DNA of 64,000 nucleotides, taken from the NCBI RefSeq assembly GCF_028712425.1, contig NZ_JAQTQD010000002.1, positions 1-64,000 of the forward strand, in the 5' to 3' direction. Source of the DNA: Methanoregula sp. GTDB taxonomy: Archaea > Halobacteriota > Methanomicrobia > Methanomicrobiales > Methanospirillaceae. The position numbers and the translations under genes are program-made. Under the pieces are notes generated by a model. It did not search any database, was not told the DNA's origin, and saw nothing but the letters and a program-made list of their open reading frames with translations. Below are positions 50,628-53,347 of this stretch, one piece after another (position 1 is the first letter of the stretch; every line of letters begins with the position of its first letter).

Positions 50628-50849
50628 TCAGCCCCGGCCCCCCGCTGCCGGGGGCTCGTCCTCGTACGTGAAAACTTCTTCGATATTCACCGCAAAGTGC
50701 CGGGCAATGCGGAACGCAAGGTCAAGCGAGGGGACGTACTTACCCTTCTCAATGGCGAGGATGGTCTGCCGGGTTACCCCGATTGCCTGCGCAAGGTCTT
50801 CCTGGGTCATATCGTGCATGGCACGGAAGACCTTGATCTTATTCTTCAT
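50628..50849 (-). CDS. XRE-family HTH transcriptional regulator
   Basis: A 73-residue DNA-binding protein, almost all helix-turn-helix: MTQEDLAQAIGVTRQTILAI followed by EKGKYVPSLDLAFRIARHF, typical of the YozG/Cro type that pairs with membrane DUF2178 proteins. Its ATG at 50849 lies inside the last codons of the membrane gene (overlap of 11 bases), so translation is coupled. The tail is Pro/Gly-rich. Confidence 0.93.
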   Translation of the reverse strand: MKNKIKVFRAMHDMTQEDLAQAIGVTRQTILAIEKGKYVPSLDLAFRIARHFAVNIEEVFTYEDEPPAAGGRG

Positions 50850-51285
50850 CGGTCTCCCAGTCCCCGTACTTGCGGGCATAGTAGATCCTGAATCCGACAT
50901 ACAGGAAGATCATCAGGCAGAGGAGGGCGAGCTGGAAATACCCCATCATCCTCGGCGACAGGAGCGCCGGCGGTGGCTGGGTGAAGAATACTTTGGGGCT
51001 CTGCGGAATATACAGGATCTGCATGACTGCGCCTATTGAAAAGGCACAGAAAACAACCCAGAACACCTGGAAGGTGCGGAGCACGGCCTGTTCCGTGATC
51101 TTCGCGCTCCGCTCGTCCTCGACAAGATCGGTGACCTTCTTCCGCGCCAGGTAGGCAAGAGCGATGCCAAGGAGGAATGCGATCTCGATGAAGAGAGGAT
51201 TGTGGATCTCCACAGAGTACCAGAAGATTGCCAGCAGGAAGAGCGCGATACACCCGCACATGAGATAAAAAGTGTTCTTCTTCAT
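50839..51285 (-). CDS. DUF2178-like membrane protein
   Basis: A 148-residue protein with four membrane helices in pairs and a central cytoplasmic loop (KKVTDLVEDERSAKITEQAV), the characteristic DUF2178 signature where an ERSAKI-like stretch is kept. Such proteins nearly always sit beside a small XRE regulator, as here. Function unknown, possibly a membrane sensor controlling the regulator. The ATG follows a CGGGAAATC sequence. Confidence 0.85.
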   Translation of the reverse strand: MKKNTFYLMCGCIALFLLAIFWYSVEIHNPLFIEIAFLLGIALAYLARKKVTDLVEDERSAKITEQAVLRTFQVFWVVFCAFSIGAVMQILYIPQSPKVFFTQPPPALLSPRMMGYFQLALLCLMIFLYVGFRIYYARKYGDWETDEE

Positions 51286-51421
51286 GATTTCCCGTTATTA
51301 TTGGTTTTTAACCTCCGCCCGTGATAAATGTGCTGTACACCGGCATTCATGAGTGAATCCGCAGTGGCACGGATGGATACTCTCATATGAGATCAGGCAA
51401 AATCCATACACCACGAGGTGT

Positions 51422-53347
51422 GTGGAGCTGGAAGGTGTAACGCTCGGGCTCATCCAGATGGCGATGGGTCCCGATCCTGAGGAGAACATTGAGAAGGCGC
51501 GCCGGAAGGTAATAGAGGCAGCAGGGCGGGGGGTACAGGTTATCTGCCTCCCTGAGCTTTATCATGTCCGGTACTTTCCGCAGCACAGCGGCCAGGAGAC
51601 GGCGGATCTTGCCGAGACCATCCCCGGCAGGTCGACGATCATCTTTGCGGCCCTTGCCCGCGAGCACAATGTCGTGATCATTCTCCCGGTGTATGAGAAG
51701 ACAGTTGACGGGAAATTTTTCAACGCCGCTGTGGTGATCGATGCGGACGGGACTGTTTCGGAGCCTTATCACAAGGTCCATATCCCGCAGGATCCGGGTT
51801 TTTTCGAGAAGGGATACTTCTACCCGGGAGACATGTTCCGCGTCTTTCCAACCCGGTACGGCACCATCGCGGTGCTCATCTGTTTTGACCAGTGGTTCCC
51901 CGAGGCAGCACGCTCTGTAGCGCTTGACGAGGCGGACATCATCTTCTACCCGACAGCGATTGGCCACCCGGGGCCGGACACCCCGAAAGAAGGTGGCTGG
52001 CAGGAGGCTTGGGAACTGATCCAGAGGAGTCATGCCGTGGCAAACAGTGTCCATGTCGCCGCGGTGAATCGTGTCGGCACCGAAGGCAGCTGTCGGTTTT
52101 TTGGCGGCTCCTTTGTTGCCGATGCGTTCGGCAAGGTACTTGCGCGGGCCGGGGATTCCGAGGAGGTTCTGGTCGTGCCAGTCGATCTCACGATGAATGC
52201 CAAAGTTCAGGATTCATGGGGATTCTTCCGCAACCGCCGGCCGGAGACCTATTCCCGGATCACGGTCCCGTTTGCGGGAAAAGAAGCGAGATTCCCCGAC
52301 CTGCGGGAAAAAGACACGCCGCAAAACCGCGGGTTTCATATGTCCGCGGAATGGGAGCCGCATGATGCGGTCTGGATCTCGTGGCCCCACAACATCTCCA
52401 CCTTCCTGGATATCCCCGCCGTGGAACAGGCATATTACGAGTTCATCGCGCATGTCCATACATCGGAACGCGTCGAGGTCTTCGTTCCCACCGCAGTGGT
52501 GCACCGGAAAGTGCGGGCACGGCTCAGGGAGATGGGCATTGATTTTGACCGGGTCATTCTCCATACTACCGAATACTCGGATGTCTGGATCCGCGACTAT
52601 GGCCCGACCTTTGTCGTCAGCCGTGCTCTTGGGAAGCTGGCCATGGTGCGGTGGGAATTCAATGCATGGGGCGGCAAGTACGAGGACCATTTCCAGGACG
52701 GGAAAATCCCGGTCCACATGAACCGCCGGCTCAACCTGCCGCTGTTCGAGCCGGGGATCGTGATGGAAGGAGGATCGTTTGATACCAATGGCCGGGGAAC
52801 AATCCTCACCACCCGGGCATGCCTCCTCAATCCCAACCGCAATCCCTCGCTCTCCGAAGGGGAGATTGAAGGCATGCTCTGCGAGTATCTTGGAGCAGAG
52901 AAGATCATCTGGCTCAACGAGGGGATCGAAGGTGATGATACCGATGGGCACATCGATGATATCGCACGGTTTGTCGGGCCTTCGACTGTTATCTGCGCGT
53001 ACGAGGAGGACACATCCGATGCAAATTATGCACCGCTCCACGAGAATTTCGAGATCCTCTCCCGCTCAACCACCGAGGATGGCACCCCCCTCACCGTCAT
53101 CCGGCTCCCGATGCCGGGACTGGTGGAAGATGCAGACGGGCAGCGCTATCCCGCAAGCTACACGAATTTCTATATCGGCAACACGGTCGTGATCGTGCCG
53201 GTCTTCAACGATCCCCGGGATACCGCTGCGCTGGATATCCTGCGCACAATCTTCCCGGATCGAACAGTGATTGGGATTTTGGCCCGCGCCATGGTCGAAG
53301 GGTTTGGAACCTTCCATTGCGCCACCCAGCAGCAGCCCCGGATCTGA
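51422..53347 (+). CDS. N-carbamoylputrescine amidase-agmatine deiminase fusion
   Basis: A 641-residue two-domain enzyme. Residues about 1-295 are a nitrilase-superfamily amidase with the catalytic triad Glu45 (ICLPELYHV), Lys118 (EPYHKVHIP) and Cys154 (VLICFDQWFPE). Residues about 305-641 are an agmatine deiminase (PAD family): EWEPHDAVWISWPHN, DVWIRDYGPTF, DDTDGHIDD and terminal HCATQQQP with catalytic Cys633. Together they would convert agmatine through N-carbamoylputrescine to putrescine, ammonia and CO2 in one polypeptide. In bacteria the two are separate (AguB, AguA). GTG at 51422 is the best start, next to GAGGT; GTG at 51353 would add 23 non-conserved residues. Confidence 0.93.
   Translation: MELEGVTLGLIQMAMGPDPEENIEKARRKVIEAAGRGVQVICLPELYHVRYFPQHSGQETADLAETIPGRSTIIFAALAREHNVVIILPVYEKTVDGKFFNAAVVIDADGTVSEPYHKVHIPQDPGFFEKGYFYPGDMFRVFPTRYGTIAVLICFDQWFPEAARSVALDEADIIFYPTAIGHPGPDTPKEGGWQEAWELIQRSHAVANSVHVAAVNRVGTEGSCRFFGGSFVADAFGKVLARAGDSEEVLVVPVDLTMNAKVQDSWGFFRNRRPETYSRITVPFAGKEARFPDLREKDTPQNRGFHMSAEWEPHDAVWISWPHNISTFLDIPAVEQAYYEFIAHVHTSERVEVFVPTAVVHRKVRARLREMGIDFDRVILHTTEYSDVWIRDYGPTFVVSRALGKLAMVRWEFNAWGGKYEDHFQDGKIPVHMNRRLNLPLFEPGIVMEGGSFDTNGRGTILTTRACLLNPNRNPSLSEGEIEGMLCEYLGAEKIIWLNEGIEGDDTDGHIDDIARFVGPSTVICAYEEDTSDANYAPLHENFEILSRSTTEDGTPLTVIRLPMPGLVEDADGQRYPASYTNFYIGNTVVIVPVFNDPRDTAALDILRTIFPDRTVIGILARAMVEGFGTFHCATQQQPRI

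Follow-up and report, generated by a model that had tools for sequence, protein, structure and literature searches.

Bacterial and plant AIH/AguA deiminases (1XKN, 2JER and 6NIB) and NCPAH/AguB amidases (Medicago 5H8I, H. pylori 6MG6 and Bacteroides homologues) are separate proteins; the former have a pentein fold with a Cys-His-Asp site and contacts to the amine of agmatine, and the latter a nitrilase fold with a Glu-Lys-Cys site, a hydrophobic pocket and a Trp on a swapped tail. The same net step from agmatine to putrescine is attributed in archaea to the aIF5A-linked agmatinase (PF00491), an unrelated metal-dependent ureohydrolase that works in one step, releases urea and would have the same role in sister genomes of the organism studied here. 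The linkage of agmatinase to aIF5A has been reported for many Euryarchaeota by Prunetti et al. 2016 (PMC5178350), who favor a model in which the Haloferax volcanii enzyme acts on agmatinyl-aIF5A.

We analyzed a protein of Methanoregula sp. that carries both an amidase and a deiminase in one chain. As far as the accessible text of Li et al. 2023 (PMC10407285) goes, a fused aguA-aguB gene is mentioned there in one line for a Ca. Diapherotrites archaeon, and the methanogen gene would likewise place the same two enzyme activities in one archaeal gene. The Diapherotrites gene is clustered with speDA and speY and named aguA-aguB, whereas the methanogen fusion is amidase-first; the accessible portion of that paper did not cover how the Diapherotrites fusion is distributed and gave no sequence analysis or assay of it. 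Novelty is moderate, the domains being of known families and the fusion having been mentioned once before; what is described here is a methanogen-wide family. No account of this family or of its swap with agmatinase was found in the literature searched, with most subscription papers lying outside its scope.

Gene structure and integrity of the fusion

The gene lies in the window, by which we mean the whole 64,000-nucleotide stretch analyzed, from a draft genome of Methanoregula sp. (2.67 Mb, 97% complete), hereafter the host. Active-site residues were mapped from the Medicago enzymes NCPAH (MtCPA) and AIH (MtAIH), as given in PMC4812014 and PMC6447857, respectively. The features are as follows:

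51422..53347, + strand: fused CDS encoding 641 aa, an AguB-like amidase followed by an AguA-like deiminase; one open frame, with homologues fused likewise
51422..52264, + strand: nitrilase-fold amidase, residues 1-281, with PF00795 at 8-257; domain match and structure comparison
51554..51556, + strand: codon of amidase catalytic Glu45 (MtCPA Glu48); alignment, PMC4812014
51773..51775, + strand: codon of amidase catalytic Lys118 (MtCPA Lys121); alignment, PMC4812014
51881..51883, + strand: codon of amidase nucleophile Cys154 (MtCPA Cys158); alignment, PMC4812014
52259..52327, + strand: linker between the domains, residues 280-302; variable, with predicted disorder at residues 285-292
52337..53338, + strand: agmatine-deiminase-type pentein, residues 306-639, PF04371; domain match and structure comparison
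52949..52957, + strand: codons of deiminase catalytic His510 and guanidine-binding Asp512 (MtAIH His224, Asp226); alignment, PMC6447857
53318..53320, + strand: codon of deiminase nucleophile Cys633 (MtAIH Cys366); alignment, PMC6447857

The frame runs from a GTG start through to its stop codon without an internal stop, and both Pfam domains are matched well above their gathering scores (PF00795, E 1.3e-53, 182.4 bits vs 23.2; PF04371, E 1.5e-116, 389.6 bits vs 25), which bears out the original prediction of a one-polypeptide fusion. Its exact start is uncertain because a second in-frame GTG lies upstream at 51353 and would add 23 residues. A misread junction had been named as one result that would overturn the prediction. 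The nearest relative, which is 92% identical and comes from G159, a single-contig genome, is likewise encoded in one frame, as are all 57 fused proteins compared from Methanomicrobiales and a second methanogen family (f22); two more occur in Bathyarchaeia-like genomes. The recurrence of the same fusion in single-contig genomes and across many genera rules out a misassembly or frameshift at the junction. Both halves are under strong purifying selection, with dN/dS values against G159 of 0.07 for the amidase and 0.12 for the deiminase and a less constrained linker.

The fused state is not universal: in g17, a genus of the same family, the amidase and the deiminase are encoded separately. A TGA separates them in all 10 g17 genomes with the junction read; the deiminase starts directly after the TGA that ends the amidase, and in four genomes it is still in the same frame.

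Beside the fusion, two small ORFs lie on the minus strand at 50628-51285. One would encode a helix-turn-helix-like regulator of 90 residues, which many genomes of the host genus also have close to the fusion; the other, of 148 residues, resembles a membrane protein. The neighbors of the fusion gene are common mostly to the host genus only, and no neighborhood conserved beyond it was seen.

Catalytic sites, linker and domain arrangement

The catalytic residues of both enzymes are present, as had been claimed from the first reading of the sequence: E45, K118 and C154 in the amidase and H510, D512 and C633 in the deiminase. In the deiminase half, the Cys-His-Asp site is joined by the agmatine contacts of MtAIH (C633, H510, D512, D387, W389, D392 and D506), and MtAIH D89, W91, D94, H224, D226 and C366 are kept in 57 of 57 fused proteins. 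Its best solved structure, also by Foldseek, is Chlorobium tepidum 1XKN (44% sequence identity); the position of Medicago Gly361 is Phe in the fused deiminase and Leu in 1XKN.

The amidase half is closest among solved structures to H. pylori 6MG6 and Medicago NCPAH 5H8I, again including Foldseek, and differs from these separate proteins in that its C-terminal tail continues into the deiminase. All 57 fused proteins keep the residues equivalent to MtCPA E48, Y54, K121, Q161, W162 and W277, and the nucleophile C158 is kept in 56; each residue of the NCPAH hydrophobic pocket (Y54, P125, W162, A183, I184 and W277) is kept in at least 55 of 57. Glu187 of MtCPA, which contacts the far amine of the substrate (PMC4812014), is not conserved: most fused proteins have Pro or Ile, and Leu or Val also occur. 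H. pylori 6MG6 and Bacteroides-type homologues likewise showed no equivalent of Glu187. Neither half reaches its NCBIfam equivalog cut-off (AguB, TIGR03381, 262.3 bits vs 410.25; AguA, TIGR03380, 280 bits vs 381.8), and for this reason we speak of a protein that functions like AguA and AguB together and assign it to neither equivalog.

The loss of Glu187 and the low AguB equivalog score are what could be expected if the amidase half hydrolyzed another carbamoyl or amide substrate, in which case the fusion would not be a two-step route. However, the nearest solved relatives are NCPAH and its H. pylori homologue, the pocket residues Y54, W162 and W277 are kept, and the amidase is joined or adjacent to agmatine deiminase across phyla, which together make this reading very improbable.

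The exception at the nucleophile is the fused protein of G056 (family f4), in which Ser replaces the nucleophilic Cys of the amidase and P125 and E132 are changed as well. Its dN/dS is still low and the genome also has agmatinase; the protein may have another role, or the substitution may be a sequence error. Elsewhere in the host genome, a stand-alone distant nitrilase paralogue (contig C25, 23835-24572) shares 28% identity with the amidase half.

The AlphaFold2 monomer model (mean pLDDT 93, pTM 0.65, residues 285-292 below 50) predicts both domains to be confidently folded, with no confident prediction of their mutual arrangement. The distance between the motifs on either side of the linker ranges from 11 to 40 residues across fused proteins. 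These results bear on the proposed channelling of agmatine to putrescine, an addition to the two-step route rather than an alternative to it, in which a structured passage would carry N-carbamoylputrescine from the deiminase to the amidase without release. The fused order is kept in nearly all members and the bacterial homologues lie adjacent in the same order, as such coupling would favor; yet the linker is variable and predicted disordered, the monomer model gives no confident domain arrangement (an oligomer interface being possible), and genus g17 has separate subunits. We thus consider channelling doubtful. Most likely the two sites would act as tethered, independent catalysts, the tether giving a higher local concentration and a fixed 1:1 expression.

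Distribution of the fusion and its replacement of agmatinase

When 232 genomes of the order were searched, 29 of 40 genera gave matches, a few of them weak and covering one domain only. The fusion also occurs in f22, whose identity is suggested by an incomplete Methanothrix locus. Among 80 loci from a scan of public genomes, 13 were fused, 61 had aguB and aguA as separate genes close together (almost always immediately next to each other and in the same order) and six were of other kinds, including the incomplete Methanothrix locus. The fused loci belonged to Methanoregula, Methanoculleus, Methanolinea and related methanogens and to the two Bathyarchaeia-like genomes. Bacteria in this sample had separate genes, and the adjacent pair was found in many bacteria and some archaea. 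Apparent bacterial fusions in Vibrio, Photobacterium and Ensifer plasmids, matched as single pieces, turned out to be two adjacent genes.

The likely history is one of a neighboring aguB-aguA gene pair that was joined in archaea. In the tree, the Bathyarchaeia-like pair falls apart from the methanogen clade, and separate fusion events in the two are suggested, with a single fusion origin not rejected by the AU test (p 0.19). Genus g17 is nested within the fused clade; fission in this genus is only suggested because its placement outside the clade was not rejected either (p 0.47).

The host genome encodes a pyruvoyl-dependent arginine decarboxylase (PvlArgDC), and a PF00491 agmatinase was not found in it. 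The route was originally described as distinct from agmatinase, which holds for the host, whereas Methanoculleus-like relatives carry both. Across 135 high-quality genomes of the order, 59 carried the fusion or split pair without agmatinase, 49 carried agmatinase alone, 27 had both and none lacked both, and 26 of the 27 genomes with both belong to family f4. When f4 was excluded, the fusion and agmatinase were strongly exclusive (Fisher p about 1e-30, uncorrected for kinship, the genome counts not being independent because the genomes are related). A SpeB-like second agmatinase type (about 300 bits), left out of these counts, is also present in seven high-quality fusion genomes.

The same pattern recurs at other levels. 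Within genus g31, three genomes have the fusion without agmatinase and nine the reverse, with no overlap. The 33 high-quality genomes of f22 comprise 12 with the fusion only, 11 with agmatinase only, 10 with both and none with neither. Both states occur within f1, f2, f5, f6 and f22.

In each of 12 genomes examined from the order, agmatinase is the next gene downstream of aIF5A, on the same strand, and it adjoins aIF5A in the f22 examples as well. Three f22 genomes that carry the fusion (G561, G563 and G564) have an agmatinase copy behind aIF5A that is disrupted by stops, frameshifts or deletions; in G572, likewise with the fusion, all that was found is an agmatinase fragment with stops. These remnants in four fusion-bearing genomes are good evidence that agmatinase was lost after replacement, with the limit that G561, G563 and G564 also have the SpeB-like agmatinase.

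Counting G562, decayed agmatinase copies were seen in five genomes, four of them with the copy behind aIF5A; G562 is 84% complete and no fusion was found in it. The SpeB-like agmatinase stands alongside the fusion in some genomes, and at the four such loci from the order it lies away from aIF5A.

Bacterial agu operons are often catabolic and the two reactions would release two ammonia, both of which fit a role of the fusion in degrading agmatine for nitrogen or energy instead of in polyamine synthesis. Against this, every high-quality genome of the two groups has either the fusion or agmatinase in its place, as expected of a needed biosynthetic step, and no neighbors conserved beyond the genus were seen. 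A degradative role is therefore quite improbable.

Proposed role and relation to aIF5A

The strongest functional evidence for the fusion is its replacement of agmatinase. Because of the replacement pattern (59/49/27/0 in the order and 12/11/10/0 in f22), conversion of agmatine to putrescine by the fusion is very likely, and the original proposal that one chain performs it is supported to that extent, though not in its channelling part. The structure of the gene, its domains, the conservation of catalytic residues, its distribution and its exchange for agmatinase are observations; the two activities, the direction of the flux and what putrescine is used for are inferred. Judged from sequence, the protein very probably converts agmatine to putrescine in two steps, one in each of its domains. 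Points that fit less well are the missed equivalog cut-offs, the changes at Glu187 and Gly361 and the retention of both routes in f4.

In the proposed mechanism, agmatine would be supplied by the pyruvoyl-dependent arginine decarboxylase of the host. Cys633 of the C-terminal deiminase would attack the guanidine carbon with the assistance of His510 and Asp512, yielding ammonia and N-carbamoylputrescine, and Cys154, Glu45 and Lys118 of the N-terminal amidase would then hydrolyze the carbamoyl group to give putrescine, CO2 and ammonia. The fusion would in this way have taken over the task of the aIF5A-linked agmatinase in most Methanomicrobiales that have it, filling the agmatine-to-putrescine step in methanogens that appear to lack one.

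Putrescine probably feeds enzymes of the deoxyhypusine synthase family, since neither SpeD nor an NspC-type decarboxylase is evident in the host: a search for SpeD in the host genome found none, and NspC was rejected as a spermidine route, with sub-cut-off matches only within the genus and none in the host. The host encodes two proteins of the deoxyhypusine synthase family (contigs C15 and C7), both above an NCBIfam deoxyhypusine synthase cut-off, and one of them may make homospermidine.

These same observations leave the host without an evident spermidine donor, and they are among the grounds for placing the main job of the fusion in aIF5A modification. A deoxyhypusine synthase would attach the agmatine moiety to aIF5A, and the fusion, as an alternative modification enzyme, would then act on agmatinyl-aIF5A, taking off the guanidine while the group is attached to the protein and passing through a carbamoyl intermediate that is likewise protein-bound. 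The position of the replaced agmatinase behind aIF5A points the same way, as does the action proposed for the agmatinase-like protein of H. volcanii (PMC5178350). However, the Haloferax model is itself a proposal, no linkage between the fusion gene and aIF5A was seen at the loci read, and the MtAIH contacts to agmatine's free terminal amine (D89 and D220) are conserved. The same gene pair is, moreover, widespread in bacteria, which are not known to have aIF5A. We regard a main role on aIF5A, including action on the agmatinyl form, as unlikely and favor the two-step conversion of free agmatine.

The exchange of agmatinase for the fusion is a clean one between unrelated routes, and traces of the lost gene persist. 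Since that gene is the agmatinase adjoining aIF5A, these genomes offer a test of whether agmatinase supplies free putrescine or works on aIF5A that is already modified, and the comparison is made practical by close relatives that differ in their route, even within one genus. aIF5A itself was not found in the host draft genome, which is probably an assembly gap because relatives have the gene: it was found in 21 of the 23 high-quality genomes from the host genus, including G159.
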